A stretch of 40,234 bases of DNA from Chloroflexota bacterium (GTDB lineage: Bacteria > Chloroflexota > Dormibacteria > Dormibacterales > Dormibacteraceae): assembly GCA_005881275.1 (NCBI GenBank), contig VBEF01000066.1:1-40234 (forward strand), written 5' to 3'. A program made the translations under genes and the position numbers. This document shows positions 76 through 14,345 of the stretch, in pieces. The first letter of the stretch is position 1; each line of letters opens with the position of its first letter. The notes under the pieces are model-generated. The model was not told where the DNA came from. It did not search any database and saw only the letters and a program-made list of their open reading frames with translations.

Positions 76-521
76 CCCGAGCCTGCGGCCCTGTGCACCG
101 CGTCGAGGATCTTTGCGTACCCGGTGCAGCGGCAGATGTTGCCCGCCAGCGCCTCGCGGATCTGCGCATCGGTGGGATGCGGCATTCGCTCCAGCAGGTC
201 GTGCGCGGCGACCACCAGGCCCGGCGTGCAGAAGCCGCACTGCACCGCCCCGGCTTCCACAAACGCTTGCTGGACCGTGCCGCCGTCCAGACCTTCGACC
301 GTCACGACCGAGCGGCCATTGGCCTGCCCAGCCTGGACGAGGCACGCGCAGACCAGCGTCCCGTCGAGATAGACCGAGCACGAGCCGCACTCACCCTGCT
401 CGCACGCGTTCTTCGACCCGTACAGGCCGAACCTTTCGCGCAGCATGTAAAGGAGGCTTTCACCTTCCCAAACGCCGTCGACAGCGCGGGCTTTGCCGTT
501 GACCACGCAGCTGACCTTCAT
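72..521 (-). CDS. Xanthine dehydrogenase, 2Fe-2S subunit
   Basis: The protein has 149 residues and carries both iron-sulfur motifs of the small subunit of XDH/CODH-type molybdenum hydroxylases. The plant-ferredoxin-type cluster is CEQGECGSC with a later Cys after YLDGTLV. The C-terminal cluster is CGFCTPG followed by CRCTGY. It passes electrons from the molybdenum site to the FAD subunit in the cytoplasm. I chose the ATG at 521 over the longer GTG form at 539 because the family starts close to a K-V-x-x-x-V-N-G strand and this ATG overlaps the upstream FAD gene's TGA by 4 nt. Length is typical (about 150-165 residues). It lies between the FAD and molybdopterin subunit genes. Confidence 0.95.
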   Translation of the reverse strand: MKVSCVVNGKARAVDGVWEGESLLYMLRERFGLYGSKNACEQGECGSCSVYLDGTLVCACLVQAGQANGRSVVTVEGLDGGTVQQAFVEAGAVQCGFCTPGLVVAAHDLLERMPHPTDAQIREALAGNICRCTGYAKILDAVHRAAGSG

Positions 522-1363
522 GCCGCCCCCCACGCCCACGAGAGGCAGCGCCGCGCCAGCACGGCCAATGCGTGACGGCGGTACGCAGCGGTTCCGCGCA
601 CGTCATCGATCGGTTTTGCCGCCTCGGCGACCAGCTTCCCAAACCGATTCAAGGTGGCGCCACTCACAGGCCTCCGGCCCTCCCAGTCGAGCTCGCCCTG
701 GATGAAGTTCTCCGCCGCGACCGCCCGGAGCGGTGTCGGCCCGGCGGAGCCGATGCCGGTACCAACACGCCGGTGACCCGGATCGATGGATAGCGCAAAA
801 GAGCACACGGCGATGACCATCGCGTTGCGCGTCCCGACCTTGGAGAACTGCTGCGGTCCTGGCGCTGGCTGGACCAGAAACGCCGCAATGAGCTCATCCT
901 TCCGCATCGCGTTTCGCTTGGGCCCGGTGAAGAACTCACGCACGGAGACGTGGCGAGTGCCGGCCTTCGATGCGAGCTCAACCCACGCATCCGATGCAAG
1001 CAGCGGCGGCAGAGCGTCACCCGCGGGCGAGGCGGTGCCCAGGTTGCCGCCGACAGTGCCTCGGTTGCGGATCTGGGGCGAACCGACCGTGCGCGACGCC
1101 ATGGCGAGGCCGGGCAGCCGGTCGCCCAGCTCATCGATCAACCGTGTGTAGGTCACACCAGCACCGATGCGCAGCATCCCGTCCACAGGCCCCCACTCTC
1201 CGAGCTCGCGTATGCGCGTCAGGTCGAGAATCGACGTCGGGCGCCGATGATCGAGGTTGATCTCCACCATCACATCCGTGCCACCCGCGATGGGTGTCGC
1301 CTCGGGATTCGCGGCCTTCATGGCGAGGGCCTCCGACCATGTGGCCGGTTGAAGGAACTGCAT
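518..1363 (-). CDS. Xanthine dehydrogenase, FAD-binding subunit
   Basis: The protein has 281 residues and is the FAD subunit of a three-subunit molybdenum hydroxylase. The two FAD loops are visible: PIAGGTD near residue 25 and the longer IRNRGTVGGNLGTASPAGD near residue 105. ILDLTRI and the C-terminal CODH-FAD region are also present. It transfers electrons from the 2Fe-2S subunit to NAD+ or another acceptor. The ATG at 1363 lies in a TGATG overlap with the uricase stop, and the gene ends in an ATGA overlap with the 2Fe-2S gene, so translation is probably coupled. A longer open frame runs to 1819 but only opposes uricase codons, so I did not use it. Confidence 0.94.
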   Translation of the reverse strand: MQFLQPATWSEALAMKAANPEATPIAGGTDVMVEINLDHRRPTSILDLTRIRELGEWGPVDGMLRIGAGVTYTRLIDELGDRLPGLAMASRTVGSPQIRNRGTVGGNLGTASPAGDALPPLLASDAWVELASKAGTRHVSVREFFTGPKRNAMRKDELIAAFLVQPAPGPQQFSKVGTRNAMVIAVCSFALSIDPGHRRVGTGIGSAGPTPLRAVAAENFIQGELDWEGRRPVSGATLNRFGKLVAEAAKPIDDVRGTAAYRRHALAVLARRCLSWAWGAA

Positions 1364-2232
1364 CACCAGGCCAGGCCCGGCTCCGGAGCGTCGTCGCGCA
1401 AGACGGTGCCTTCGATCAAGCCGTACGGCCGGTCCGCGGCGTGGAAAACCTCGTTGTCGTTGGCCATGCCGAATGGCGAGAGGTCGACCACGAAGTGGTG
1501 CCGGTTCGGCATCGTCATCCGGATCTCGGCGACCTCCGCTCGAGCCTGGAGCACAGCCTCGCCCATGGCATAAAGCGTCTGCTGCAGCGAGAGGCTGTGC
1601 TTGGTCGCGAACGTCTCCAAGAGCAACCGCCGAATCTCTTCGAAGGACGCGCGCCAATCGATGTCCGAACCGGCGTAACGCCAGCGCGCCTCTACCGACG
1701 TGGCCAGAACGCGGTCGTGGGTCTCGGGCAGCGTCGTGAAACGGTCCTTGACGAAGCCGTGGAACTCCGAGCCTGTCGACTTGAGCACGACAAGGTCGCC
1801 GATACCGCCGACCACCCACGTGCCGTCATCGGTGCAGGTCACCATGGCCACGCGCCTGTCCGAACCGGCCCGAACGAAGGCGTGGTCGTGGGGCTTGCCC
1901 CGCACGCTGACACGCTCCCAGGCCTGCTCCCCGATGTGGACGCGTGCCCGATACACCGATGCGAACTCGCCCACGAAATGTCGCGCGAGCCTGATGCCGA
2001 ACTCCTCGATCTCCCCGATCGGCTCGCGAGCGAACGCGAATACGGTGTTCTTCTGCGTGTCCGTAGGCACGACCTTGCTGTTGTCGCCGGTGAGATGGGT
2101 TTCGGCGAAGTCCCCCGCCAGCGCCACACTTACGGTCAGATCCCTCACCTCGTGCAGCGCGCCGGACTTGGTGACGCGCACCACGTGCGTCTCGGCCTTG
2201 CCGTACTGGTTGTCTCCGAGAAGGATCGTCAC
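1363..2232 (-). CDS. uox: Urate oxidase (uricase)
   Basis: The 289-residue cofactor-free uricase oxidises urate to 5-hydroxyisourate with O2, releasing H2O2. The signature VPTDTQKNTVFAFA is at residues 55-68. The catalytic elements described for fungal uricase are visible: Lys12 in the QYGKA motif, Thr57 in the PTD motif and the His of NRHHF near the C-terminus. Length matches single-domain uricases (about 290-300), and it is not fused to OHCU decarboxylase as in Bacillus PucL. It starts with GTG at 2232, overlapping the TGA of the HIU hydrolase gene (GTGA), and stops in a TGATG overlap with the FAD subunit gene. It is the fourth gene of the adenine-to-allantoin operon. Confidence 0.97.
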   Translation of the reverse strand: MTILLGDNQYGKAETHVVRVTKSGALHEVRDLTVSVALAGDFAETHLTGDNSKVVPTDTQKNTVFAFAREPIGEIEEFGIRLARHFVGEFASVYRARVHIGEQAWERVSVRGKPHDHAFVRAGSDRRVAMVTCTDDGTWVVGGIGDLVVLKSTGSEFHGFVKDRFTTLPETHDRVLATSVEARWRYAGSDIDWRASFEEIRRLLLETFATKHSLSLQQTLYAMGEAVLQARAEVAEIRMTMPNRHHFVVDLSPFGMANDNEVFHAADRPYGLIEGTVLRDDAPEPGLAW

Positions 2233-2558
2233 GTGCCCTTGTACGTGGTGTAGCCGAACGGGCTAAGCAACAGGGGCACGTGCAGGTTTCCGCCTTCGAA
2301 GCTGAACACCACGGACACCGCCGGATAGAAGGCGCCCAGGCCTGATCGCTCGAAGTAAGTGGCGGTCTCGAACTCGAGCCTGTACTCCCCGGCCTCGATG
2401 TCCTCATCGGTCAGCGAGCGGACGCGCCCGTCGGCGTCAGTCTCCGCGCTTGCAACCTGCTTCCAGTCGCCATCGGGCTCGTGGCGGTGCAGAGTCACGA
2501 CCAGGCCGGCCGCGGCGGTGCCACGCATGGTGTCGAGCACATGAGTGGAGATGCTCAT
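2229..2558 (-). CDS. uraH: 5-Hydroxyisourate hydrolase (transthyretin-like)
   Basis: This 109-residue transthyretin-related protein hydrolyses 5-hydroxyisourate, the uricase product, to OHCU. Family marks are the N-terminal STHVLDT with its conserved His, the central GRVRSL with Arg, and the C-terminal HVPLLLSPFGYTTY. The diagnostic C-terminal tetrapeptide is normally YRGS; here it reads YKGT, a conservative deviation at two positions. The gene overlaps its upstream partner uraD and downstream uricase by 4 nt each, which fits the consecutive steps they catalyse. A cytoplasmic homotetramer is expected from the family. The ATG at 2558 is the only sensible start. Confidence 0.96.
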   Translation of the reverse strand: MSISTHVLDTMRGTAAAGLVVTLHRHEPDGDWKQVASAETDADGRVRSLTDEDIEAGEYRLEFETATYFERSGLGAFYPAVSVVFSFEGGNLHVPLLLSPFGYTTYKGT

Positions 2559-3046
2559 CGTTCGAGAAGCGCCAGGACCCGGAGCCTTGTAATCTTGCGC
2601 TGCTCCGCCGCCGCGACCTCCAGCTCCGTGTAAGGGTCGTTCTTCATGCGCTGGCGCAGCGCATGAAGGATCTCATCCGCGCCACGACCGCTGGCGGCGA
2701 TGAGAAACACGTGGCCGAAGCGATCTTCATACCTGCGATTTTCCGACGCCAGGGCGGTGAGCGTCTTGGCGGACGCCTGACGGACCCCGCTTTGCTCGCG
2801 CTCCGAAGCCGCTGGGGCGTGGCCGCCGACCTCGCCAATTCGCGGATGGGCCGCGAACGCTCGCAGCCAGTCGCCGGCGCTGAGCTCGGACCAGGCCTCC
2901 TCCGCGGCAGCAAACAGCATCTCGAGGTTGGGGTACGGCCGGCCGCTCGCGACGCGCGCGGCCCATGCTCGGTTTGCGAAACACGCGTGCAGCTCGTCCT
3001 CGGCTTCGGAGGCCGGCAGCGAGTTGAACGATTCGAGACCGGTCAC
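2555..3046 (-). CDS. uraD: OHCU decarboxylase
   Basis: The 163-residue protein converts 2-oxo-4-hydroxy-4-carboxy-5-ureidoimidazoline to S-allantoin. It shows the alpha-helical family's catalytic motif AHPRIG near residue 66 (His as general acid) and the later NRRYEDRFGHVFLI block with the conserved Phe-Gly-His. Length is normal for stand-alone UraD. It starts with GTG at 3046 inside a GTGA overlap with the adenine deaminase stop, and ends in ATGA with uraH. With uricase and UraH it forms the complete urate-to-(S)-allantoin segment. No allantoinase or allantoicase is visible in the window. Confidence 0.95.
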   Translation of the reverse strand: MTGLESFNSLPASEAEDELHACFANRAWAARVASGRPYPNLEMLFAAAEEAWSELSAGDWLRAFAAHPRIGEVGGHAPAASEREQSGVRQASAKTLTALASENRRYEDRFGHVFLIAASGRGADEILHALRQRMKNDPYTELEVAAAEQRKITRLRVLALLER

Positions 3047-4713
3047 TCAATCCCCAGCGGTACCAGCTCGAAGCGGTTGACATCGACCAGGCCGCGGTCG
3101 GTGATCTTCAGCTCGGGGATGACGGAGAGCGCGAGGAAGCTTAGGGTCATGAACGGCGACTCCATCGTCACGCCCATCTCTTGGAGCCTGCGCTCCATCG
3201 ACTTCAATCGTTCATACACATCGGCAAGCGGCCGATCGCTCATGAGGCCCGCCACCGGTAGTGGAAGCTCCTCAACGACATGGCCGCCGTCCGCGATGAC
3301 GATGCCTCCGCCGATCACAGCCAGCCGCATCGCGCACGCGGCCATGTCGTCATCGTCTACACCAAGCGCGACGATGTTGTGCGCGTCGTGGGCCACGGTC
3401 GACGCGAAGGCGCCACGTTTGAGCCCCACGTTGGTCGCAAAGCCAAGGCCGATGCGCCCGCTCGCGTGATGGCGCTCGATGACTGCGATCTTGACGAGGT
3501 CACGGCCTGGATCGGCAGTGACACAGCCGTCCCTGACCGTTGGCTCTACGACCTCAACGCCGGTGATCAGCTGCGCCGGGATGACGCGCATGACTCGAAT
3601 CCTCTTTGGTCCGACCGCGATTCGAAAAGAAGTTGCGTCGACGGGAGCGACGGTGACGGTCTGCCGCACCCATTCGGGAACGTCGAGGTCCACGAAATGC
3701 GGCGGCGCGCCGCGCTTGAGCACCCGGCGAGGACGGAAGGACTTGAGATCGTCGAGGACCAGGATGTCGGCCTGGTAGCCGGGCGCGATCGCGCCGAGCC
3801 GCCACAAGCGGTGATAGGTCGCCGGGTTGATTGTTGCCATCACAACCGCGTCTTCAGGGCTGATTCCGTCCCCGACCGCGACGCGCACCATCTGATTGAT
3901 GTGGCCCTGCTCAACGATGAAATCGGGCTCGCGGTCATCGGTGCAGAAAGCGCAGCAGTCGGTGCCGTACTGCCTGACCAGCGGCAGCAGGTCGCGAAGG
4001 TTGCGCGCGATCGACGCCTCACGAAGCAGCACCCACATGCCGAGACGCCGCTTCTCCAACGCCTCTTCGAAGGTCGTCGCCTCATGGTCGGAGCGGATGC
4101 CGGCCGCGATGTAGGCGTTAAGCGCAGGCCCGCGAACACCGGGTGCGTGCCCGTCGACGTGATCTGTCAGCCCGGTGCTCAGCTTGGCGAGCTCCGATGG
4201 CCGGCCTGCGATCACTCCTGGGAAATTCATCATCTCCGCCACGCCGATGGTGCGGCGACGGCGCAGCAGACTCTCGATGTCGCCCGGCGTGAAGGGCCGC
4301 CGCGGGGACTCGAACTGCGAGGCGGGAACACACGAGGAGGCCATGACAAAGACATCGAGGGGCAGATCCGTGCAGCAGTCGAGCAGCCAGTGAATGCCAT
4401 CGGTGCCGAGCACGTTGGCGATCTCGTGGGGGTCCGCGACCACTGCCGTGGTCCCGTGCGCAAGGACGGCGCGGGCAAACTCGTCGACCATCAGCTTGGA
4501 CGACTCGATGTGCATGTGCGCATCGATGAAGCCCGGGACCAGGTACGCGCCTGAGACGTCTAGTCGCTCGCCGCCGTCATATCGACCCAGCCCGACAACG
4601 TGGCCATCCTTGACTGCGACGTCGACATCCAGCCACTCCTTAGTGAACACCGAGAGGACATGGCCTCCGGACAGCACAAGGTCGGCCGGTTCGTCACCTC
4701 GCGCGACAGCCAT
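3043..4713 (-). CDS. ade: Adenine deaminase (AdeC type)
   Basis: The 556-residue metal-dependent amidohydrolase deaminates adenine to hypoxanthine, the feed step for the xanthine dehydrogenase below it. Visible marks are the metal-binding GFIDAHMHIESS (about residue 58), HGTTAVVADPHEIANVLG, the GVAEMMNFPGVI region, DGHAPGV, CTDDREPD with the metal-ligand Asp, and the AdeC C-terminal region with the D-x-H-N segment. Length is just under the usual 570-590. I chose the ATG at 4713; a frame stays open far upstream to 6354, but that part opposes the molybdenum hydroxylase gene and is not protein-like. It is the first gene of the purine operon, and its promoter must lie in or across the 33-bp divergent gap at 4714-4746. 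Confidence 0.93.
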   Translation of the reverse strand: MAVARGDEPADLVLSGGHVLSVFTKEWLDVDVAVKDGHVVGLGRYDGGERLDVSGAYLVPGFIDAHMHIESSKLMVDEFARAVLAHGTTAVVADPHEIANVLGTDGIHWLLDCCTDLPLDVFVMASSCVPASQFESPRRPFTPGDIESLLRRRRTIGVAEMMNFPGVIAGRPSELAKLSTGLTDHVDGHAPGVRGPALNAYIAAGIRSDHEATTFEEALEKRRLGMWVLLREASIARNLRDLLPLVRQYGTDCCAFCTDDREPDFIVEQGHINQMVRVAVGDGISPEDAVVMATINPATYHRLWRLGAIAPGYQADILVLDDLKSFRPRRVLKRGAPPHFVDLDVPEWVRQTVTVAPVDATSFRIAVGPKRIRVMRVIPAQLITGVEVVEPTVRDGCVTADPGRDLVKIAVIERHHASGRIGLGFATNVGLKRGAFASTVAHDAHNIVALGVDDDDMAACAMRLAVIGGGIVIADGGHVVEELPLPVAGLMSDRPLADVYERLKSMERRLQEMGVTMESPFMTLSFLALSVIPELKITDRGLVDVNRFELVPLGIE

Positions 4714-4746
4714 CCAGTGTGCGTCGATGACGGAGACTTTAGCGAT
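4714..4746. promoter_or_regulatory. 33-bp divergent gap between two catabolic operons
   Basis: Only 33 bases separate the ATG of adenine deaminase (minus) from the ATG of the molybdenum hydroxylase (plus). CGGAG about 11 nt before the plus-strand ATG is a weak ribosome-binding candidate. I see no clear -10/-35 pair. The promoters must overlap each other or lie inside the opposite coding regions, so the two operons could be co-regulated. Confidence 0.4.
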
Positions 4747-7008
4747 ATGGCGAGCGCGAACGCCGGACCCATTGGCAGGAGCCTGAAGCGACTCGAGGAC
4801 GGGCGCCTTCTCCGTGGCGAGGGGCGGTTCGTCGACGACGTGGCCCCGGTGAACTGCCTCCATGTCGCGTTGCTGCGGAGCCCCGTGGCCAGCGGACGGC
4901 TGGCGGGGGTGGACCTGGCGAGCGCCCGTGAGGCACCCGGAGTCGTTGCCGTCTTTGCGGCAGGCGACCTTGCCGGCTCTTGCGGCGCCCTCGCCGTTCA
5001 CCTGACCACGCCGGGCGCCGTCTCGCCCGAGAGGCCGATCCTCGCCGCCGACCGAATTCGTTTCGTGGGCGAGATGATCGCCGCGGTCGTCGCGGACACC
5101 CGGTACGCAGCCGCTGACGCGGTCAACCTGATGAGCCCTGACATCGAACCCCTCCCCGCCGTCGTCACTTTCGAGGATGCGATGGCGGAAAACGCGCCGC
5201 TCGTGCATGAGGCCGTGCCCGAGAACCTCTATTACCTCGGCCATCGCGCTTACGGGAACGTGGAGCAAGCCTTCGAGCAAGCGGACGTGATTGTGGAGGG
5301 CGAGGTGACCCATCCGCGCGTCTCGCCCGCGCCCATGGAAGGCCGTGGGGTGCTCGCGGTGCCCGACGGCGCTGGGGTCGCGGTGTGGACATCGACCCAG
5401 GTGCCGCACCTGGCGGCCGAGGCGATCGCGGAATGCCTCTCTCTCGAGCCATCGCTCGTCCGGGTCGTTGCGGCGGATGTCGGCGGCGGCTTCGGCATCA
5501 AGGCCCAGGTCTACCCGGAGGAGATCTTGCTTGCCTGGATCGCGCGCCGGCTCAACGCGCCGGTGAAGTGGATCGAGACCCGATCCGAGCACATGCAGGC
5601 CGCGAGCCACGCTCGCGACCAGAACGTGAAGTTCAGCGCCGCGGTGCGCCAGGACGGGCGCGTGCTCGGCTTGCGCGTAACGATCTTTTCGAGCATCGGC
5701 GCCTACGGGATCCGGCCGTTCGGTCCGCTGCTCGATCCATTGGGCACGGCTGGACTCATGACCGGGCCGTACGACATTCGCGACTACGAGTACGACACGT
5801 ACGCGGTCGCGACCAACAAGAGTCCTGAGGGCCCGTACCGCGGGGTCGGCATGGTCACAGCGGTCCTCGCGCACGAGCGGCTGATGGATCTGATCGCGGC
5901 GCGGCTCGGCGTGGATCCCGTCGAGGTGCGCCGCGTGAACTTTGTGCGGCCGGAGCGAATGCCGTATCTGAGCGTCACCGGACATGCCTACGAGTCCGGC
6001 GACTACATCGCCGCACTGGAGTCGGCGATGCGCGCATTCGACTACGCGGGCACGCGCAACGAGCAGAAGAAGGCGCGGGCAGAAGGCCGCCTGTTCGGCG
6101 TCGGCATCGGCTCGTATGTCGAGTACACCGGCGCGGGCTCGTCGACCTTCAAGGGCCGCGGCATGATGGACATCCCCGGCACCGACACGGCTCGTGTGTG
6201 GCTGGCCGACGACGGCGCGGTGCATCTCCAGACCACGTGCCCGGCGGTGGGCCAGGGCTCGCACACCACGTTCGCGCAGGTCGCGGCTGCAGGCATCGGC
6301 ATCGAACCCGAAAGCGTTGTCGTGGAGCAGACGGACACGGCTCAGGTCGGCCATGGGACCGGTTCGTTCATGAGCCGCGGTTCGGTCACCGCGGCCACGA
6401 GCACGTACCGCGCCGCATCGCTGTTGCGCGAGGCGATCCTGGAGGCCGCCTCATACCGGCTGGAGGTGCCGATCGACCGCGTGTCAATCGACCGCGCGAC
6501 CCTCTCGAAGCTCGCCGCGGACAACGACGGCAGCCTGGACGTCTCGGTGACCTACGACGCGGTCCAGGCATCGCACCCCTACGCGACCCACATGTGCGTG
6601 GTCGAGGTCGACGCGGCCACCGGAGCTGTCCAGATCCTTCGCTACGTCGTGGCCGAGGACTGCGGCGTGCTGATCAATCCCATGATCGTCGAAGGCCAGG
6701 TCGCGGGCGGGGTGGCGCAGGCGGTCGGAGCGGCCCTGATGGAAGAGGTCGCATACGGCCCGGACGGCGAGCTGCGATCCGGAACGTTGCTCGACTACCT
6801 GGTCCCAAGCGTGGGCGAAGTGCCTCTGGTCGAGATCGAGCACCTCGTCACCCCGTCCACGGTGCACGAGCTCGGCACCAAAGGAGTCGGCGAGGGCGGC
6901 ACCATCGGTGGCACCGCCGCGATCGCCAACGCGATCGCCGACGCGCTGTCGATCACCGACGTGACGCTGCCGCTCACGCCAGACCGGATCGTCGCCTTGA
7001 TGCAGTGA
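4747..7008 (+). CDS. Xanthine dehydrogenase-family molybdopterin-binding subunit (lone large subunit)
   Basis: The 753-residue protein belongs to the large-subunit family of XDH/aldehyde oxidase/CODH enzymes, which hydroxylate heterocycles, purines or aldehydes. The N-terminal hammerhead domain starts GRSLKRLEDGRLLRGEGRFVDD. The Moco loop GGGFGIKAQVYPEE follows near residue 250. The substrate loop reads GPYRGVGM, not the AYRCSFR loop of true CO dehydrogenase. The catalytic Glu is present in GVGEGGTIGG (Glu716). No FAD or 2Fe-2S subunit gene is next to it on this strand; those of the divergent purine operon are the nearest. It is followed by a CoA ligase, hydrolase, crotonase and F420-type enzyme, so the substrate may be a heterocyclic or aromatic compound. 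The ATG at 4747 leaves no overlap with adenine deaminase. Confidence 0.9.
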   Translation: MASANAGPIGRSLKRLEDGRLLRGEGRFVDDVAPVNCLHVALLRSPVASGRLAGVDLASAREAPGVVAVFAAGDLAGSCGALAVHLTTPGAVSPERPILAADRIRFVGEMIAAVVADTRYAAADAVNLMSPDIEPLPAVVTFEDAMAENAPLVHEAVPENLYYLGHRAYGNVEQAFEQADVIVEGEVTHPRVSPAPMEGRGVLAVPDGAGVAVWTSTQVPHLAAEAIAECLSLEPSLVRVVAADVGGGFGIKAQVYPEEILLAWIARRLNAPVKWIETRSEHMQAASHARDQNVKFSAAVRQDGRVLGLRVTIFSSIGAYGIRPFGPLLDPLGTAGLMTGPYDIRDYEYDTYAVATNKSPEGPYRGVGMVTAVLAHERLMDLIAARLGVDPVEVRRVNFVRPERMPYLSVTGHAYESGDYIAALESAMRAFDYAGTRNEQKKARAEGRLFGVGIGSYVEYTGAGSSTFKGRGMMDIPGTDTARVWLADDGAVHLQTTCPAVGQGSHTTFAQVAAAGIGIEPESVVVEQTDTAQVGHGTGSFMSRGSVTAATSTYRAASLLREAILEAASYRLEVPIDRVSIDRATLSKLAADNDGSLDVSVTYDAVQASHPYATHMCVVEVDAATGAVQILRYVVAEDCGVLINPMIVEGQVAGGVAQAVGAALMEEVAYGPDGELRSGTLLDYLVPSVGEVPLVEIEHLVTPSTVHELGTKGVGEGGTIGGTAAIANAIADALSITDVTLPLTPDRIVALMQ

Positions 7009-8384
7009 CGCCGCTCCCCTACCAGCCCGTCAGCTACCTGGAGTGGAATGCCGCGCGACGCGGCTCGAGCGCGGCGATCTGGGAGGGAGGCGCCGAGATC
7101 ACCTTCGAGGAGCTGCTCGGCCACGTGCGTCGGATTCAAAAGCTGCTGGCGGCGAGAGGGGTGCGCGAGGGCGATGTCGTCGGCGTTCGGCTTCCCAACG
7201 TTTGGCAGTACGTCGCCCTGGAGCTCGCGATCCCCGACCTCGGCGCGGTCATCGTGCCGATGCCGCTGACATTGGGCGAACACGAGGTGCGTTGGGTCAT
7301 GGAGAAGACACGGCCGCGCTTAGTCATCACGGGTGGCGAGCTCGGAGCATCGGCACAAGGACTTCCGATGCCTCCCACGGCCAGGCCCGATCCCGCGAGG
7401 ATCGTCGAGATCGCCATGACCTCGGGCACCACCGGAATGCCCAAGCTCGCCTCGCTGTCCGCCCGCCTCAAGCAGGTGACCTTCGAGAGCTTTACCGCCC
7501 GCCTCGGCATCACCGACGTCGATCGCGTCCTGCCGATGACGCCGCTGACTCAGGGCATCGGCGGGATGTGCCTGTACTGCATGCGCCATGGCGCGGCACT
7601 CGTCATGCTCGGCGAGCCGCACTGGACTCCCGAGCACTGCCTCGCCACCGCTGCCGGCGCGGCAGCTACCGTGATGGTCGGCGTGCCGACAAACGTGATC
7701 CGGATGCTCAACCACTCGATCGCCTTGCCGGCCGTGCGCGCGGTCGCCGTGGCCGGGGCGCCGCTGCCTCCCGAGATCGCGGAGCGTTGGGAGACGTCGA
7801 CCGGGATCCCGATCTCGAGCTTCTACGGGTCGATGGACGCCGGCCAGCTGGCGGTGGCCAGCCCGTCTGATCCGCAGCGTCTTCGCTGGACAACGGTGGG
7901 CCGGCCCCACGATCGCGCCGAGTGGCAGATTCTCGATGGTGAGATCTGCATGCGCGGGGACCTCGTGCAGGACCGCTACTGGGGCGAGGAGTCAGGCCCC
8001 TACTCGGAGGACGGTTGGGCACATATGGGCGACCTCGGTTTCGTCGACGAGTCGGGATTCCTCCACGTCGTCGGTCGTGTGAAGGACATCATCATCAGGG
8101 GCGGCACGAACATCAACCCGTACGAGGTGGAGTCGATGCTACGCATGCATCCGGCCGTTTTCGACGCATGTGTCGTCGGCCGGCCGCACCCTGAGCTCGG
8201 CGAAGTACCTGTTGCATTCGTGGTCGGGGAGCTCGATAGAGAGGAGCTCGAACGGTTCCTGGATGGGCGTGGCCTGGCTCACTACAAGTGGCCTGTGGCG
8301 GTGCATCGACTCGACGAGCTGCCCGTGTCGGGCCCGGGCAAAGTCAATCGCAAGGCGCTGCGTGAATATGCTCGCGCGATGTGA
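7005..8384 (+). CDS. AMP-dependent acyl-CoA synthetase/ligase
   Basis: The 459-residue ANL-superfamily protein should activate a carboxylic acid through an acyl-adenylate, usually to the CoA thioester. Visible core motifs are the P-loop MTSGTTGMPK (138-147), YGSMDAG in place of the usual Y-G-x-T-E, GWAHMGDLG, GRVKDIIIRGG with NPYEVE, and the C-terminal GKVNRK lysine (about 446). It is shorter than most members (500-550), mainly before the P-loop. It starts with GTG at 7005, which overlaps the stop of the hydroxylase gene (GTGA), and ends 17 nt inside the next gene. In this operon it probably activates the acid made from the hydroxylated substrate. The substrate cannot be read from sequence. 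Confidence 0.88.
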   Translation: MTPLPYQPVSYLEWNAARRGSSAAIWEGGAEITFEELLGHVRRIQKLLAARGVREGDVVGVRLPNVWQYVALELAIPDLGAVIVPMPLTLGEHEVRWVMEKTRPRLVITGGELGASAQGLPMPPTARPDPARIVEIAMTSGTTGMPKLASLSARLKQVTFESFTARLGITDVDRVLPMTPLTQGIGGMCLYCMRHGAALVMLGEPHWTPEHCLATAAGAAATVMVGVPTNVIRMLNHSIALPAVRAVAVAGAPLPPEIAERWETSTGIPISSFYGSMDAGQLAVASPSDPQRLRWTTVGRPHDRAEWQILDGEICMRGDLVQDRYWGEESGPYSEDGWAHMGDLGFVDESGFLHVVGRVKDIIIRGGTNINPYEVESMLRMHPAVFDACVVGRPHPELGEVPVAFVVGELDREELERFLDGRGLAHYKWPVAVHRLDELPVSGPGKVNRKALREYARAM

Positions 8385-9150
8385 CGACATCGACGTCACG
8401 TGGTTTCAGGCCGGGCGCGGCGACCTGCTGATCCTCGTTCACGGTCTCGCCGACGACCACCGCGCCTGGCGCCGCGCGCTCCCTGACCTGATGCTTCGCC
8501 ACCGCGTGCTCATGTATGACCTGAGGGGTCACGGCGAGACGACGCTCGGTAAGGCTGAGGGAACACTTGCGCAGCTGGGGTCCGATCTGGTCGCGCTGAT
8601 GGATGCGCTCGTCGTGGAACGCGCCGCCGTCGCCGGCTTCTCGCTCGGCGGCACGATCGCGATGCGGGCGGCGATCGATCACCCAGAGCGCATCGACGCG
8701 CTCGTCCTGGTCGCGACCTCGAGTCGAGTCGGCCGCGCCGCGGCGGACTGGTACCGGCAGCGGGTGGAGATGGTCGAGCGCGACGACCCGCAACTTCGCG
8801 CGACGCTCGACGGCGACACCGCCGATGTCTACAGAGAATCGCCGGCGGAGCTGGAAGAGGGTCTGCTGATCCGCCGCCAATCGACCGCCGACCCGCACGG
8901 TTACGGCAACGCGTGCGCGGCGATGGCGGCGCTCAACGCCTCGCCGCTCGACACCGAGCTGCACCGCATCACGGCGCCGACGCTGATCGTCGCCTCCGAC
9001 CTCGACCGCCACTGCCCCCCGAAAGCGGCCGAGATCATCGCTGCAGGCATCACTGGGAGCCGGCTCGAGGTCATGACGGGAGCAGGCCATCCGATACCGG
9101 TCGAGAAGCCGTGCGAGCTGGCGGCTTCGATCAACGCCTTCCTCGGCTGA
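8368..9150 (+). CDS. Alpha/beta hydrolase (enol-lactonase-like)
   Basis: The 260-residue single-domain hydrolase has a full catalytic set: LVHGLADD oxyanion loop (24-30), GFSLGG nucleophile elbow with Ser92, an Asp in ASDLD (211 or 213) and GAGH with His241. Its layout resembles 3-oxoadipate enol-lactonases and C-C or ester hydrolases of aromatic degradation, but the substrate is unknown. The ATG at 8368 overlaps the ligase 3' end by 17 nt; no closer in-frame start keeps the first beta strand. It is followed after a TGATG overlap by a crotonase. In the operon it could hydrolyse a ring-opened intermediate or an acyl-CoA. Confidence 0.87.
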   Translation: MLARCDDIDVTWFQAGRGDLLILVHGLADDHRAWRRALPDLMLRHRVLMYDLRGHGETTLGKAEGTLAQLGSDLVALMDALVVERAAVAGFSLGGTIAMRAAIDHPERIDALVLVATSSRVGRAAADWYRQRVEMVERDDPQLRATLDGDTADVYRESPAELEEGLLIRRQSTADPHGYGNACAAMAALNASPLDTELHRITAPTLIVASDLDRHCPPKAAEIIAAGITGSRLEVMTGAGHPIPVEKPCELAASINAFLG

Positions 9151-9929
9151 TGTCTGGCGCCCTGCGTCGCGAGTGGGGATCACACGAGATCCTCACCCTC
9201 ACAATCGACCGAGCCGAGCGGCGCAACGCGCTGGATCCGGAGCTGCTCACCGCGCTCGCCGAAGCGCTCCAAACCGACGGCGTCGGGGCGGCGATCGTGA
9301 TCCTCCGAGGCGCTGGGACTGAGGCCTTTTCCTCGGGATATGACATCTCGCGCCTGGCCGGTTCCGTCGAAGACCTCGACGCGGACGCATTCATCGGCGA
9401 AGCCGTCAGCGCCCTGCGCGCGTGTCCCGCGCCGGTCATCGCTCAGATTCACGGTCACTGTCACGGCGCGGCAGTCGAGATAGCGCTGAGCTGCGACCTG
9501 AGGATCGCGTCCGATGACCTGCGGATGTCGGTCCCGGCGGTCAGCCTCGGCGTGGTCTACCGCTATCAGTTCCTCGCCCGCCTGGTGCAGATCTGCGGGC
9601 TTGCCCGAGCCTCTGACCTCTTGCTGGCGATGCCAGAGCTGGACGCGGAGCGAGCACACCAGTGGGGCCTCGTGACCGAGATCCTGCCCGCATCTCAGGT
9701 GCCCAAGCGCGTCCAGGAGCTTGCCGAGAAGCTGGCCACCTCGCCGCTCGCGGCGGTGAAGGGCACCAAGGCGAGCCTGAACCTCATCGCCGCTCGGGCA
9801 ATCGTGGGCGAGGACCTTCAGAAAGCGCAGCAGGTACGCGCCCAGGCGGCCGCCAGCCCCGAGCGCAACGAGGCCGTACGGCGCCGCAAGGAATCCATGT
9901 CGCGGCGCTCGCGCCCCGAAAACCGGTGA
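9150..9929 (+). CDS. Enoyl-CoA hydratase/isomerase-family (crotonase) protein with atypical active site
   Basis: The 259-residue protein has the crotonase fold markers: RNALDPELLTAL, the first oxyanion segment SSGYDIS (61-67), and the second, HGHCHGAAVEIALSCDLRIAS (101-121). The two glutamates that act as acid/base in classical enoyl-CoA hydratase align with Ala130 (VPAVSLG) and Asp156 (RASDLLL), so ordinary hydration is doubtful. The family also covers isomerases, ring-cleaving hydrolases, decarboxylases and dehalogenases. It starts at an ATG in TGATG with the hydrolase and ends in GTGA with the next gene. It presumably acts on the CoA thioester made by the ligase two genes upstream. The specific reaction is not known. 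Confidence 0.87.
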   Translation: MSGALRREWGSHEILTLTIDRAERRNALDPELLTALAEALQTDGVGAAIVILRGAGTEAFSSGYDISRLAGSVEDLDADAFIGEAVSALRACPAPVIAQIHGHCHGAAVEIALSCDLRIASDDLRMSVPAVSLGVVYRYQFLARLVQICGLARASDLLLAMPELDAERAHQWGLVTEILPASQVPKRVQELAEKLATSPLAAVKGTKASLNLIAARAIVGEDLQKAQQVRAQAAASPERNEAVRRRKESMSRRSRPENR

Positions 9930-10852
9930 CGGCCTTCGACGTCAGCGTCGGGATCAGCCCGCGCCAGTCGTTCGACAGCTGGGCCGAGTTCGTCAAGGGA
10001 CTCGAAGCAGAAGGTGTTCGGCGGCTCTGGGCGATCGACTCGCAGCTCGCTATGAAAGACGTCTACACCGGCCTGGTCGTGGCCGCCCTGAACACCACAA
10101 GAATTGGCCTCGGCACCGGCGTCACCAACGCGGTGACGCGGCACCCGACGGTCACGGCCAACGCGATCGCCGCGGTTGCCGAGATCTCGCATGGGCGGGC
10201 GATCCTCGGCCTCGGCGCCGGTGACTCGGCGCTCTACGGAATCGGGCTCAAGCCCCAGAAGGTGGTTGAGGTCGAGGAAGCGATCGGCTTCTTTCGCTCC
10301 AGGGTCGACGCAGTTCCGATCTACCTCGCGGTGAGCCAGGAGCGGATGTGCCAGCTGGCGGGCCGCCAGGCGGACGGCGCGATCGTCATGGGTCCCGCGC
10401 AGCCCGACATGGTGCGCCGGCAGGTCGAGTGGGTCGAGGGCGGGCTGAAAGCGGCGGGCAGAGACCGAAGGACCTTCGAGATTGAATTCATCGCGACCGT
10501 CGCCGCGTCACCTGATGACGTGCGCTCGTGGGCGTCGACGCAGGCTCGCCTGCTCGCCCACCACCGCGAGCTGCCCGAGAGCCTTGTCCCGTTTCGCGAC
10601 GAGATCAAAGCCAGCGAGGAGTCGTATGACTACGCCGAGCATCTGTCGACGCACGCGACGCACAGCGGCGCCGTGTCGGACGAACTGGTGCGCACCTTGG
10701 CGATCGTGGGCACCCCGTCCGAGTGCGTGGAGCGCTTACGCGGGTTACAGGCGACCGGGCTCGATTCGATGATCTTTCCGCTGGCGGGACGGGGCCGCCT
10801 CGAACGCTGGCGGAAGCTCCGCGATGAGATCCTTGCTCAGATCATCGTGTAG
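9926..10852 (+). CDS. LLM-class (F420-type) flavin-dependent oxidoreductase
   Basis: The 308-residue luciferase-like TIM-barrel protein resembles F420-dependent reductases of the methylene-tetrahydromethanopterin reductase group. It has the IGLGTGVTNAVTRHP strand and ISHGRAILGLGAGDSA, the usual cofactor-binding turn. It could use F420 or FMN; the sequence does not decide. The GTG start at 9926 overlaps the crotonase stop (GTGA), making this the fifth and last gene of the plus-strand catabolic operon. Its 3' end overlaps that of the convergent SDR gene by 16 bp, leaving no room for an independent terminator. A second, dissimilar LLM enzyme lies at 14.5-15.5 kb. Confidence 0.87.
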   Translation: MTAFDVSVGISPRQSFDSWAEFVKGLEAEGVRRLWAIDSQLAMKDVYTGLVVAALNTTRIGLGTGVTNAVTRHPTVTANAIAAVAEISHGRAILGLGAGDSALYGIGLKPQKVVEVEEAIGFFRSRVDAVPIYLAVSQERMCQLAGRQADGAIVMGPAQPDMVRRQVEWVEGGLKAAGRDRRTFEIEFIATVAASPDDVRSWASTQARLLAHHRELPESLVPFRDEIKASEESYDYAEHLSTHATHSGAVSDELVRTLAIVGTPSECVERLRGLQATGLDSMIFPLAGRGRLERWRKLRDEILAQIIV

Positions 10853-11619
10853 CCGCCGCTGACCGACAGCGTCTGGCCGGTGATGTACGACGCGCGGTCG
10901 GAAGCGAGGAGCAAAACCGCCGGCACGACGTCGTCCGGAGTTCCGAGGCGACGCAGCGGATAGCCCTTGGCGGCCTTCTCGCGCACCTCGGGGGTGAACA
11001 TCGCTGCTTGGTCCGACGACCACATTGACTCGTCGCCTGAGGTCTCGGGCGAGCCGGGGATGAGCCCCGGACACACGACGTTGAGCGTGATGCCGTATTT
11101 CCCGACCTCGCGGGCGATTGCTTTCGACATCGCGATCACGCTGGCTTTCGTGCCGCTGTAAACGGCCTCCCGCCACTCGCCGATACGCCCCGCGTCCGAC
11201 CCGATCGAGACGATGCGGCCATAACCGCGCTGCATCATCGGGTCGAGGACCGCGCGAACGCTGTTGATGAAGCCCCACGTGTCGATGGCGATCTCGCGCT
11301 CCCACTCGGCCCGCGGCTTTTCCACGAACAGGCGGTCGACGGTCCAGCCGGCGCAGTTGATGAGAATGTCAACCCCTCCCATCGAGCTTTGCGTGAACTG
11401 CACCGTGGAGGACACTGAATCCCAGTCCGTGACATCGGTGTGCCGCGCCACGACGGTGCCGTGGGGAGCCTCGGTTGCGACTTTCTTCGCCTGCTGCTCA
11501 TCGACGTCGGCGATCACGACGCGCGCTCCTTCACCGGCGAATCCCAGAGTGATCGCCCGCCCGAGGTTGGACGCGCCTCCGGTCACGATGGCGACGCGGC
11601 CGTCCAGCCCGAGATCCAC
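10837..11619 (-). CDS. Short-chain dehydrogenase/reductase
   Basis: The 260-residue classical SDR has the NAD(P) glycine motif TGGASNLG (13-20), VVIADVD favouring NAD, the NCAG strand, Ser141 in VSIGSDAG, and the catalytic YSGTK (Tyr154, Lys158). NVVCPGLI and the C-terminal ITGQTLSVSGG are also present. It resembles 3-oxoacyl-ACP reductase and 2-hydroxycyclohexanecarboxyl-CoA dehydrogenase types, so it could join the convergent catabolic operon's pathway, but it is the last gene of a minus-strand run. It starts with GTG at 11619, 2 nt after the stop of the preceding membrane protein gene. Its 3' end overlaps the LLM gene by 16 bp. Confidence 0.9.
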   Translation of the reverse strand: MDLGLDGRVAIVTGGASNLGRAITLGFAGEGARVVIADVDEQQAKKVATEAPHGTVVARHTDVTDWDSVSSTVQFTQSSMGGVDILINCAGWTVDRLFVEKPRAEWEREIAIDTWGFINSVRAVLDPMMQRGYGRIVSIGSDAGRIGEWREAVYSGTKASVIAMSKAIAREVGKYGITLNVVCPGLIPGSPETSGDESMWSSDQAAMFTPEVREKAAKGYPLRRLGTPDDVVPAVLLLASDRASYITGQTLSVSGGYTMI

Positions 11620-11621
11620 GT

Positions 11622-12269
11622 CTAGCCGGCGGCCTGCGGCAGCGCCTGCGGCGAGGCGCCGAACCTCTCCTCGAGGAACCGCCCGTTGGCGAGGAGAGCG
11701 TTGGAGTCTTTCTTTTGCACCGCGTCCGCGACCTCATTCATCTTGGCCGCGAGAAGCGTCAGCTGCTCGCCCAGTATCTGGTCGGCCGTCTTCCCGTTCT
11801 GCATCTTGTGCAGCGTCGCGTAGGCTCGGGGAAGGCTGACGTAAGCCTGCAGCGCCGAAGGTAGATAGTCCGTCGCTGTCCGGCCGACGACAAACAGGTC
11901 AGGCGACCCAGGCGGGAAATCAGCGTAGTGCGGAAGGATCCCCATGATCGTGTCGGCGATGTCCTGCAGCTTGGCCTCGAGGTCGGGCGTCAGCTTTCCA
12001 TAGGCGATGTTCAGCTGGCGCTGCAGGCTGCGCCGAATGCTCTCGGGGTCAAATGACGTTCCGCCCGCTGCCACCTTCGGCGGGCCGGGCGCTAGCAGCG
12101 CACCGATCCCGTACATCACTCCGACCACGACTGGCCAGAAAACGCTCCTGATCGCGCCCGTGAAGACAAGCAGCAACCCGAGGATCGCCAGGATGGCGCC
12201 GACGATGTTCTTCCCGCTGTACAGGTACCTCAAGAACGGGTTGACTTCGATCTTTCCACCTTGGAACAT
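11622..12269 (-). CDS. Hypothetical two-TM membrane protein
   Basis: The 215-residue protein is not assigned to a family. After about 18 residues (MFQGGKIEVNPFLRYL) come two closely spaced hydrophobic segments (about residues 20-37 and 44-60) forming a hairpin anchor. A soluble part of about 150 residues, rich in helix-forming residues, follows (RRSLQRQLNIAYGKL, LPRAYATLHKMQNG, AAKMNEVADAVQKKD). The C-terminal half is probably cytoplasmic by the positive-inside rule. The ATG at 12269 follows a weak GGAG. It lies 2 nt upstream of the SDR gene, so the two are probably co-transcribed. No catalytic motif is visible. Confidence 0.7.
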   Translation of the reverse strand: MFQGGKIEVNPFLRYLYSGKNIVGAILAILGLLLVFTGAIRSVFWPVVVGVMYGIGALLAPGPPKVAAGGTSFDPESIRRSLQRQLNIAYGKLTPDLEAKLQDIADTIMGILPHYADFPPGSPDLFVVGRTATDYLPSALQAYVSLPRAYATLHKMQNGKTADQILGEQLTLLAAKMNEVADAVQKKDSNALLANGRFLEERFGASPQALPQAAG

Positions 12270-12342
12270 ACGTGGCTCCAGTCAGGGTAACCAGGTCGGT
12301 GAGCGCTGTGAGCTGAGGGTTCAGTGCGATTCGAAACGGTCC

Positions 12343-12957
12343 TCAGGCTCGGTGCGCCGCTGGACGGGCGGGTCCTCCCTCGTCGGCTCCGAGCAACAGT
12401 CGGAGGCTCAGGAGCAGGACAAAGGCGATAAATGCCAGCGGCGCTACGAAGTCGAGTGCGCCAATACCAACCAGGCCGGCCACCGCTCGCGCCACGCAGG
12501 CGATCGCGACGGCGATCCCGATTGCGCGGATCCACAGCGAGTCGCCCATCGGCGCGACAATCGCGAACGCGGCGACCGAGACGAACAACCCGGCGTCGGC
12601 GAAGTCTTCGACCACGGTCAGCGTGTACGCGGTATCCGCGGACAGATTGGACATGGCAACCATGACGAGCGGAATTGCGTTGGTCGCAAGCTCAAAGGCG
12701 ACGAACACGGCAACCACGGGTTTGAGCCACCGATTCGGCCCTATCGAGAGGGCAAACGCGACAAACGGCGCCACCGCGATCGCGCCGAGGATTTGCTGCA
12801 GCGCGATCACCGACCCGTGCGCCTTATAGAAGGTTGCGATCTTCGTCCCGGTCTCGGCGCCGGTCGGCAGCGACACCATCGCCGCGCTTATCAGCAGGAT
12901 GACCACGAACACGATCCCCCATCCGCCCGCGGCGCGGCCCGTACCGAACAGTCGCAT
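12343..12957 (-). CDS. Multi-pass membrane protein, DUF4386-like
   Basis: The 204-residue protein has about six hydrophobic segments with short polar links, including WGIVFVVILLISAAMV, LQQILGAIAVAPFVAF and a long C-terminal segment ending LLLSLRLLLGADEGG. The pattern fits small DUF4386-type integral membrane proteins of unknown function; I hold that assignment loosely. The ATG at 12957 lies in TGATG with the upstream sensor-like gene, so the two are translationally coupled. A 73-nt gap with no obvious hairpin separates it from the next gene on this strand. No enzymatic motif is visible. Confidence 0.7.
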   Translation of the reverse strand: MRLFGTGRAAGGWGIVFVVILLISAAMVSLPTGAETGTKIATFYKAHGSVIALQQILGAIAVAPFVAFALSIGPNRWLKPVVAVFVAFELATNAIPLVMVAMSNLSADTAYTLTVVEDFADAGLFVSVAAFAIVAPMGDSLWIRAIGIAVAIACVARAVAGLVGIGALDFVAPLAFIAFVLLLSLRLLLGADEGGPARPAAHRA

Positions 12958-14345
12958 CAGTTGGCGACGAGCTCGGATTGCTGCCTGCCGCGGCCCAGCG
13001 TCAGGCCGACCGCCACCACGTCGGCGGCCTTCTGTAGTCGCTCGCGCTCACGTTGTGCGTAGGGCACTCCGTGCCGGCGCGGACCAAGGGCGATCCGGCC
13101 CACCTCGCGATCCCCGGCACGAAGCGGAACGACGAGTACCGCGTCGCCCGACCAGGTGCCCGAAATGTAGCTTGGTTGGCCATCCAAATCTCCGTTGAGG
13201 AATAGCGCCGCGCCGGTGGCGTCGGCCCCCTCTCGCGCAGTTCGCACGAGCCGTTCGGCGAGCCTCTCGCCGTCCATCACGTCGATCACCGCTCCGATCT
13301 CGCTTTCGAGAGACTGCATCGAGCGTTCGAGATCCCGGGCATCCTTGAAACGGCTGTCGACGAGTCGCTGCAAGGCGTTCCGCACCGGCGTGAACAAGGT
13401 GGCAATCAACGCCACCGTGATGATGATCGCCGCGTCAGAGGACTGTCCCGTGGCGCTCACGAAGATGCGCTGGAGGGTTCCGGTAAACGCGGCATAGAGT
13501 CCCGCAAGAATCGCGGTCAGCGCGATGTAGACGATCGCCCGATTGATGATGAAGTCGATCTCGTAGAGGCCATAGCGAAGGATCGCGGCCCCGGCGGCGA
13601 TGGGCACCAGGGTGTAGGTCAGCGTGAAGACAAGGAACTCGGCGTCATTCGAGAGCAGGTTGTGGTTCCAGATGTTGACGGCGATGTCGCCGATGAATGC
13701 AAGCACCACCACGGCCGCCGCCGTCGCCATCCACTTCAGCTGCTGCCGCAACACCGGACCAGCCCTCCGCCAGCGCAAGGCGAGGGCGGCCAGCCCAGCA
13801 ATGGCTGAGGCCACGGTGAGCAGCACCCCGATGTCGCCGAAATCGAAGGCGTTGGACGGCGTGACGACGGCGTCGGCGATCAGACGTACCACCAGCCCGA
13901 GCACCGCCGCAGCGGCGGCAAAACCCCAGAGGCGCGACAGCAGACGGCCATCGGGGAAGAGAAGAAGGCCCAAGGTCAGCGGAAGGAAGATGCCGCTCTG
14001 GACGAGGACGTGCGAAACGTTGTTTGCCAGTGACGCCGCGGGCAATGACCAGCCCGGTGCGAGGGCAAGCTCCGCGTAAGCGCCCAGCACGACCGCGCCC
14101 GCTGTAGCCAGCCCGGACAGGGAGAAGATCCAGCCGATCGCGTGACGGGGATGCTGGGAGACGATCAGGGCCCCCACGAGTGAGAAGGCGACAGCTCCGA
14201 TGAAGGCAACTACCGTGCTCCAGATGGCTGCCCCGGGAAGAAAGGCCCTGAGGTGCTGCGACAGCATGAGCGCAGTCAGCGGGATGCACGCCAGCGTCAG
14301 TCCCAAGCCAAGCCAGCCGAGCAGCCGAGCCCGTTGCGAGGTCAC
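12957..14345 (-). CDS. Membrane sensor-like protein with GAF-like C-terminus, no kinase domain
   Basis: The 462-residue protein has about eight membrane segments over residues 1-310. The sequence RYGLYEIDFIINRAIVY lies before the last ones, a block common in membrane sensors of actinobacteria and Chloroflexota. A linker with a short coiled region (RLVDSRFKDARDLERSM) leads to a GAF-like domain of about 130 residues ending GLTLGRGRQQSELVAN. Such N-terminal parts are usually fused to a histidine kinase or a diguanylate cyclase; neither DHp/HATPase nor GGDEF follows here. It starts with GTG at 14345, overlapping the stop of a 33-residue membrane ORF. It is coupled to the next membrane protein by TGATG, so they may form one sensing unit. 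Confidence 0.75.
   Translation of the reverse strand: MTSQRARLLGWLGLGLTLACIPLTALMLSQHLRAFLPGAAIWSTVVAFIGAVAFSLVGALIVSQHPRHAIGWIFSLSGLATAGAVVLGAYAELALAPGWSLPAASLANNVSHVLVQSGIFLPLTLGLLLFPDGRLLSRLWGFAAAAAVLGLVVRLIADAVVTPSNAFDFGDIGVLLTVASAIAGLAALALRWRRAGPVLRQQLKWMATAAAVVVLAFIGDIAVNIWNHNLLSNDAEFLVFTLTYTLVPIAAGAAILRYGLYEIDFIINRAIVYIALTAILAGLYAAFTGTLQRIFVSATGQSSDAAIIITVALIATLFTPVRNALQRLVDSRFKDARDLERSMQSLESEIGAVIDVMDGERLAERLVRTAREGADATGAALFLNGDLDGQPSYISGTWSGDAVLVVPLRAGDREVGRIALGPRRHGVPYAQRERERLQKAADVVAVGLTLGRGRQQSELVAN

Follow-up and report, generated by a model that had tools for sequence, protein, structure and literature searches.

An orphan quinoline-oxidoreductase-like subunit in a conserved gene unit facing the purine-degradation operon of an uncultured Dormibacterota bacterium

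In the reductive nicotinate pathway of Eubacterium barkeri and Azorhizobium, ring hydroxylation by a molybdenum (Mo) enzyme is followed by reduction of the oxo-pyridine and hydrolytic opening. The large subunit of quinoline 2-oxidoreductase, QorL, works with its own partners QorM and QorS. A third system, the Hmf route of 2-furoate degradation (hmfABCDE), is described in the available text as combining a CoA synthetase, a Mo-dependent acyl-CoA dehydrogenase and a CoA hydrolase and as requiring a ring or lactone hydrolase (PMC6678421, PMC12064950). We compared with these systems a gene unit on a 40,234-bp stretch of DNA (the window), which is the complete contig C1 of an uncultured Dormibacterota bacterium (genome of 2.94 Mb in 127 contigs, 86% complete). 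The unit comprises five plus-strand genes encoding, in order, an orphan Mo subunit of the xanthine oxidase family (MoL), an acyl-CoA ligase (Lig), an alpha/beta hydrolase (ABH), a crotonase-fold enzyme (ECH) and a luciferase-like protein (LLM), together with a convergent SDR gene. We propose, as a reading that is plausible though short of probable, that it serves to break down a small heteroaromatic acid and is co-regulated with the purine-degradation island that it faces.

At the level of enzyme kinds, the unit has in common with the Hmf route a CoA synthetase, a Mo enzyme and a hydrolase. Set apart by description rather than by sequence, it differs from that route in lacking FAD and FeS subunits (the companion subunits of HmfABC are not found in the operon), in having LLM and SDR, and in its nucleobase setting. 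Its AMP-forming ligase and its crotonase can be likened to HmfD and to HmfE, itself crotonase-fold, again by description only. The nicotinate pathway, compared in the same way, is not known to involve an initial CoA ligase or an F420 enzyme. An earlier note, made from the letters of this DNA alone, had stated that the gene set matches no known pathway; given the Hmf combination, it is better regarded as a novel assembly of known kinds of enzymes, less unlike known pathways than was claimed.

Conservation and setting of the gene unit

The five-gene module is real. The earlier note had described it as one unit, with successive overlaps of 4, 17, 1 and 4 nt and divergent from a purine operon with 33 bp between the starts (4714-4746); coordinates and overlaps are confirmed (Table 1), and overlapping or coupled gene ends recur in other species. 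It overlooked that MoL is an orphan, that xanthine dehydrogenase (XDH) has a large subunit of its own, that SDR belongs to the unit and that a 36-bp invariant spacer lies between the two operons. Its family labels are right at the superfamily level, where Pfam agrees for all five proteins, except that the "Mo hydroxylase" is a large subunit alone, with no medium or small subunit in the module.

The same note had named the absence of the gene set from all other genomes as one outcome that would refute it. We found all five genes in order in 10 genomes. Crotonase matches at E 1e-20 or better occur in 95 of 101 genomes and are mostly paralogues, but a gap in identity separates 13 genomes (61-100%, our own included) and three at 52-56% (G035, G091, G082) from the remaining matches, which among those listed lie at 40% or below. 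The 13 comprise 12 of the 17 genomes of the same genus and one of another genus (G039, 75%). Ten of them have the ordered set (G000, G001, G002, G003, G004, G010, G013, G014, G016 and G039), with MoL truncated by the contig end in G001; in G005, G008 and G009 contig ends interrupt it. Neither crotonase nor LLM nor focal-type MoL was found in G012 (63% complete) and G015 (70%). The order recurs in other species at 61-86% identity with coupled or overlapping ends, and pN/pS is 0.16-0.32 across 14 gene-by-species comparisons (three species), which together argue for more than chance. Genes in relatives were called with a crude GC3 script and tblastn, and neighbours take their names from family scans, from BLAST against named genes or, where stated, from inspection by eye.

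The 3′ ends of SDR and LLM overlap by 16 nt. SDR follows LLM in each of the 10 relatives with a long enough contig and adjoins the ligase in three further genomes (G020, G023 and G032, 69-73% identity), and we therefore count it as the sixth member of the unit. Beyond the genus, the ligase-hydrolase pair is adjacent in seven further genomes from five other genera of the family (G020, G021, G023, G025, G029, G032 and G034). Within about 10 kb of the pair, G020, G023, G029 and G032 have a Mo-hydroxylase operon that includes FAD and/or FeS genes and whose first gene is an LLM relative (54-59%).

How rare the ligase is was judged from two exact peptide patterns and an even draw of 400 genomes across the phylum. 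At E 1e-80 or better it is found in 15 of the 400, all of the same class, and the pattern scan of 84,980 named species returned 22 loci, 21 of them in metagenome-assembled genomes titled Chloroflexi, Dormi(i)bacterota, Dormibacteraeota or Dormiibacter and one in a genome titled only "bacterium". In plasmid searches the best place in every record is below 60% identity (best among the matches listed: MoL 39%, ligase 33.5%, crotonase 39%, LLM 32%), and no such module is present in the six neighbourhoods opened, one of them unannotated. Among the matches listed by a literature search that left most subscription journals outside, no title or abstract opening describes the gene set.

In G016 (L023) MoL and the ligase form a single open frame of 1,223 aa. 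An error of assembly is one possible cause. It is made less likely, though not disproved, by G006, which shows the same arrangement (L068/L099; 1,076 aa, the contig ending inside the ligase).

The purine operon of the relatives reads, on the minus strand, adenine deaminase (Ade), OHCU decarboxylase, 5-hydroxyisourate hydrolase, uricase, FAD subunit, FeS subunit, XDH large subunit (XdhL) and 8-oxoguanine deaminase. It faces AllB, AllC, DUF3830 and an NCS1-family permease, followed by cytosine deaminase. Several of these assignments, read in G002 and G013, pass curated cut-offs: cytosine deaminase (507 of 483 bits), AllC (537 of 479), AllB (474 of 358), 8-oxoguanine deaminase (615 of 532) and, in G013, XdhL as PucD (847 of 784). 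The permease carries Pfam Transp_cyt_pur in its G039 copy and scores 119 of the 353 bits of the NCBIfam NCS1 model, below its cut-off. In our own genome, contig C107 carries permease-DUF3830-AllC-AllB facing deaminase-XdhL and ends inside XdhL; its most likely continuation is the left end of the window. In G006 and G011 a focal-type MoL adjoins purine genes at contig ends; these two genomes, like G013 and G016, have no Ade between OHCU decarboxylase and MoL. Uricase, present in 28 of 42 family genomes, is commoner than the module.

The spacer was aligned for the seven species with Ade at this position; the arrangement is different in G013 and G039. All seven share an identical 36-bp stretch, in which a GGAG can be seen by eye 11 nt ahead of the MoL ATG. 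Of the flanking Ade-coding columns, 16/66 vary (50/66 are invariant), and the module genes show a dS of 0.65-1.45. Against this background the identity of the spacer points to a shared control region, a probable though still putative assignment. The earlier note had suggested that the module may respond to purine-related compounds. A link to nucleobase genes does extend beyond the purine operon, since in G039 the permease and then the module stand in a row on one strand with cytosine deaminase facing them; co-regulation itself we only infer.

Table 1. Features of the gene unit and of the facing operon in the window.
Feature	Position	Strand	Basis
MoL, orphan large (Mo) subunit, xanthine-oxidase-family hydroxylase	4747..7008	+	Pfam MoCoBD_1/2; PDB 1t3q alignment; 14 aligned sequences
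Lig, short acyl-CoA ligase, 459 aa, GTG start	7005..8384	+	Pfam AMP-binding and C-terminal domain; 17 sequences
ABH, alpha/beta hydrolase, nearest models 3-oxoadipate enol-lactonase PcaD(C)	8368..9150	+	Pfam, NCBIfam, 19-sequence alignment
ECH, crotonase-fold enzyme	9150..9929	+	Pfam; alignment of 11 sequences
LLM, luciferase-like protein nearest F420-dependent Mer, GTG start	9926..10852	+	Pfam, NCBIfam, PDB comparison
SDR, convergent, sixth member of the unit, nearest model BadH	10837..11619	-	NCBIfam, neighbourhoods in relatives
Probable shared control region, 36-bp invariant stretch, from Ade start codon to 2 bp before MoL start	4709..4744	.	7-species alignment
Adenine deaminase (Ade), first gene of divergent operon, ATG at 4713	3043..4713	-	
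OHCU decarboxylase	2555..3046	-	
5-hydroxyisourate hydrolase (HIUase; transthyretin family)	2229..2558	-	
Uricase	1363..2232	-	
XdhB-like FAD subunit, 172 of 310 bits needed, start codon unsettled	518..1381	-	
2Fe-2S subunit of xanthine dehydrogenase; large subunit would run past contig end	72..539	-	

The molybdenum subunit and its electron-transfer partners

Judged by its motifs, MoL is quinoline-oxidoreductase-like and neither a xanthine nor a CO dehydrogenase. In the alignment with quinoline 2-oxidoreductase (PDB 1t3q) its loop, PEGPYRGVGMV, falls opposite PIGAYRGVGF, and the two enzymes also share GGGFGxKA and the base glutamate; YRGVG and the catalytic GEGG are found in all 14 focal-type sequences aligned, our own included. 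The best PDB match by E-value is CoxL (8uem, 6.1e-137), with quinoline 2-oxidoreductase just behind over nearly full length (3.5e-135). An identity as form I CO dehydrogenase was nevertheless ruled out by the loop, PYRGVGM where the CO dehydrogenases have CSFR, and by a score of 464 of the 991 bits needed for CoxL (TIGR02416). MoL belongs to the same superfamily as the XDH large subunit, with 28-30% identity to PucD/XdhA and scores (293 of 784 bits for PucD, 386 of 780 for XdhA) below the XDH cut-offs, and the two differ both in the loop and at a position that we take to be Glu802 of bovine XDH, occupied by E in XdhL and by A in MoL.

Unlike QorL, MoL has no FAD or FeS genes of its own in the module, the nearest ones belonging to the XDH operon. 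Serving as the missing XDH subunit was rejected as an explanation, because C107 ends in an XdhL of the genome's own (L085), which shares 86% identity with that of G013 over 660 aa; the XDH is thus complete without MoL. As MoL lacks FAD and FeS genes, we consider it most likely that electrons leave it through the FAD and FeS subunits of the facing XDH, and the XdhB-like FAD subunit is a possible electron-transfer partner of MoL as well.

We counted orphan large subunits in seven chosen genomes (G002, G004, G010, G014, G016, G022 and G035; 67 hits, three below the family cut-off). None of the eight focal-type subunits has a same-strand FAD gene within 4.5 kb, and all eight face an FAD-containing operon, the purine operon in five cases and that of a second group (group B) in three. 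Facing such an operon is what distinguishes the focal type. By the same measure 31 of the 67 hits are orphans in total, some of them near contig ends, and sharing of subunits may be widespread in the lineage. Our own genome has eight large-subunit hits (one below the cut-off, the XdhL fragment), five FAD hits (one weak) and five FeS hits.

A tree of 26 large subunits unites the 10 purine-linked MoL in one clade, joined by the four group-B sequences at 100/100. Three large subunits linked to LLM form the sister group of these two at 97/98, a place for which the program gives a long-branch warning. Group-B loci were examined for four of the five genomes (the second G010 copy, G022, G024 and G035), G018 holding a fragment only. 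Its MoL faces a GntR-MoL2-FAD-FeS operon, in which the script did not find FeS in G010. The group-B loci (L096, L097, L098, L082) are putative catabolic clusters with a second Mo hydroxylase, DUF1989 proteins, Amidohydro_2, CMD, a cyclase, a malonyl-CoA-synthase-like ligase, SDR and, by eye, a Liv-type transporter, not every part having been checked in every genome.

Accompanying enzymes, candidate route and alternatives

The usual acyl-CoA ligase motif is YGxTE. The focal ligase has the P-loop SGTTGMPK, YGSMD and the catalytic-lysine motif GPGK, and in 17/17 sequences the P-loop and the terminal lysine are kept while D stands for the glutamate of YGxTE. Feruloyl-CoA synthetase, MenE and malonyl-CoA synthetase are its best solved relatives; an identity as malonyl-CoA synthetase was rejected by eye, Phe standing in place of the arginine that precedes YGxTE in MatB. 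The hydrolase keeps its presumed Ser-Asp-His triad in all 19 aligned sequences, our own included, and reaches 156 of the 256 bits of PcaD (TIGR02427), below the cut-off. In the crotonase the first acidic active-site residue (E110) is Glu in 10 of 11 sequences and Asp in G091. The second position is Ala130 in all 11, followed by an invariant Y137-R138; matched by eye, it presumably corresponds to the second of the two glutamates of rat enoyl-CoA hydratase (E144 and E164). The enzyme thus does not have the two active-site glutamates of an enoyl-CoA hydratase, and the replacement of the second acidic residue by Ala would make a plain hydratase mechanism less likely. The nearest NCBIfam model of SDR is BadH (216 of 431 bits needed).

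Among 13 PDB sequences, LLM is closest to Mer, the F420-dependent methylene-H4MPT reductase (E 7.8e-33), yet it scores 121.8 of the 348.7 bits needed for TIGR03555, and a C1 role in this operon is unlikely. Luciferase-like hydride transferases use F420 directly to oxidize or reduce diverse substrates, according to the available part of one account (PMC8498797). A search for the CofD family, the one F420 gene family covered, gave a hit in 21/21 genomes, our own best of 330 bits being in the strong class, and F420 synthesis by the host is likely. The suggestion of the earlier note that an F420-type enzyme reduces or oxygenates an intermediate is consistent with these relationships, and the similarity to Mer would predict that LLM uses F420. 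A second LLM gene (14499-15485, minus strand), which lies downstream in relatives too, exceeds the cut-off of TIGR03560 (300 of 231 bits).

These enzymes can be arranged into a route. The ligase would form a CoA thioester, or act right after hydroxylation, and the QorL-like Mo subunit would hydroxylate a ring carbon next to the heteroatom. The Mer-like LLM could then transfer a hydride from F420H2 onto the hydroxylated (oxo) ring, the crotonase could add water at the activated double bond, and SDR could oxidize or reduce a hydroxyacyl or aldehyde product. The PcaD-like hydrolase would cleave a lactam, lactone or thioester, and the acyl product would enter central metabolism. Of the proposals considered, the idea of the earlier note, hydroxylation and CoA-dependent ring opening of a heterocyclic acid, is the best fit, the heterocyclic acid being the conjectural part. 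We favor as substrate class a nicotinate-like N-heteroaromatic acid, because nicotinate is a base-like ring released from NAD and fits both a reduce-then-open chemistry and the nucleobase setting; nicotinate itself is an unlikely candidate when taken alone. An elaborated version, also unlikely, would have a QorL-type subunit that lost its own FAD and FeS partners dock onto those of the head-to-head XDH, both being switched on through one spacer. It would supply a route for a heteroaromatic acid, run through CoA thioesters and coupled to F420, by which a non-purine base or the ring of a cofactor (e.g. nicotinate) is salvaged from dead cells. If true, the proposal would give an uncultured phylum one more unassigned catabolic pathway, bring F420 chemistry into heteroaromatic acid breakdown and make large-subunit swapping testable in the xanthine oxidase family, whose enzymes are usually drawn with their own subunits. 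The case also cautions against counting such CoxL-like large subunits in metagenomes as CO or xanthine dehydrogenases.

Several observations weigh against this proposal. None of the five proteins passes an NCBIfam curated cut-off among the models listed (all 13 compared for MoL and all 21 for LLM; the best 25 of 102 for the ligase, of 37 for the hydrolase and of 71 for the crotonase), so that homology does not fix the substrate or the step order. The CofD-family search also responds in 10 of 14 controls, E. coli and other non-producers included. Within the genus, crotonase, ligase, LLM and focal-type MoL were all not found in G007 (95% complete), and the LLM frame of G005 is broken by a stop or frame change. 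The crotonase may be optional, with few orthologues beyond the genus (G039; G035, G082, G091). Among the seven genomes of other genera with the ligase-hydrolase pair, five have no uricase match and two have uricase on a different contig; a position beside purine genes is no demonstration that the substrate is related to purines. Finally, 23 of the 59 other large subunits likewise have no same-strand FAD gene within 4.5 kb, and missing subunits are therefore no proof of sharing with XDH.

A quite unlikely alternative is an Hmf-like route for furoate (or a pyrrole or thiophene carboxylate), with the ligase as furoyl-CoA synthetase, MoL as the large subunit of furoyl-CoA dehydrogenase, ABH as ring or lactone hydrolase, ECH as 2-oxoglutaroyl-CoA hydrolase, and LLM and SDR peripheral. 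The available text on Hmf has an HmfD synthetase, an HmfABC Mo dehydrogenase, a lactone hydrolysis without assigned gene and HmfE as proposed CoA thioesterase (PMC6678421), and a separate putative ring hydrolase is listed elsewhere (PMC12064950, in part); the nearest models of ABH, enol-lactonases among the best 25 compared, would suit that step. However, HmfB and HmfC have no counterparts here, neither LLM nor SDR is named for Hmf in those texts, and nothing ties furoate to nucleobase genes. In a further alternative the unit would take part in purine or pyrimidine breakdown, for example of a modified base, MoL hydroxylating the nucleobase and the CoA enzymes processing the open-chain acid. 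The conserved head-to-head arrangement with its invariant spacer, and the permease and cytosine deaminase beside the module in G039, point that way; yet XDH in the purine operon is already served by a large subunit of its own, the presumed purine-binding position is E in XdhL and A in MoL, and pyrimidine oxidation has a separate candidate set with a barbiturase-family gene, which leaves this explanation improbable.

Improbable to the same degree is degradation of a cyclic aliphatic or aromatic acid, MoL acting as aldehyde oxidoreductase and LLM as a Baeyer-Villiger-type flavin monooxygenase. The top NCBIfam score of MoL is indeed glyceraldehyde dehydrogenase alpha (547 of 790 bits needed), such LLM roles have been proposed in SAR202 Chloroflexi (PMC5395668, in the text available), and in G091 relatives of crotonase, hydrolase and SDR lie near a periplasmic binding protein, acyl-CoA dehydrogenase, PaaK-like ligase, LLM and amidase and, by eye from N-termini, Liv-type permeases and thiolase. 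The QorL-type loop of MoL and the proximity of LLM to Mer speak against it. That the unit is an aerobic CO dehydrogenase module, as the top PDB match of MoL might suggest, has a negligible probability, the CSFR loop being absent and YRGVG present in its place.

Nucleobase loci elsewhere and other window features

A candidate oxidative pyrimidine route is found in relatives (L091:11808-19700, L090:14083-19185) and in our own genome (C51:4820-9444). It includes a barbiturase/cyanuric-hydrolase family protein (PF09663, 377 bits in G002) beside FAD and large-subunit genes of a Mo hydroxylase with the loop PYRGAGR, as well as a cyclase relative and a malonyl-CoA-synthase-like ligase; in G004 an NCS2-family permease and a cytosine deaminase-like gene are nearby. 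PF09663 occurs in 30 of 42 family genomes, our own copy lying beside FAD-FeS-MoL on C51, and its identity as barbiturase is putative.

Elsewhere in the window, three ORFs on the minus strand (11622-14345) are kept in relatives and have no Pfam or NCBIfam match, with membrane-spanning stretches recognizable by eye. On the plus strand, 20456-21415 encodes a Rieske oxygenase with a vanillate O-demethylase-type C-terminal domain, and 36170-36940 a protein of the aminoglycoside/hydroxyurea phosphotransferase family (PF04655, 91 bits) of putative function.

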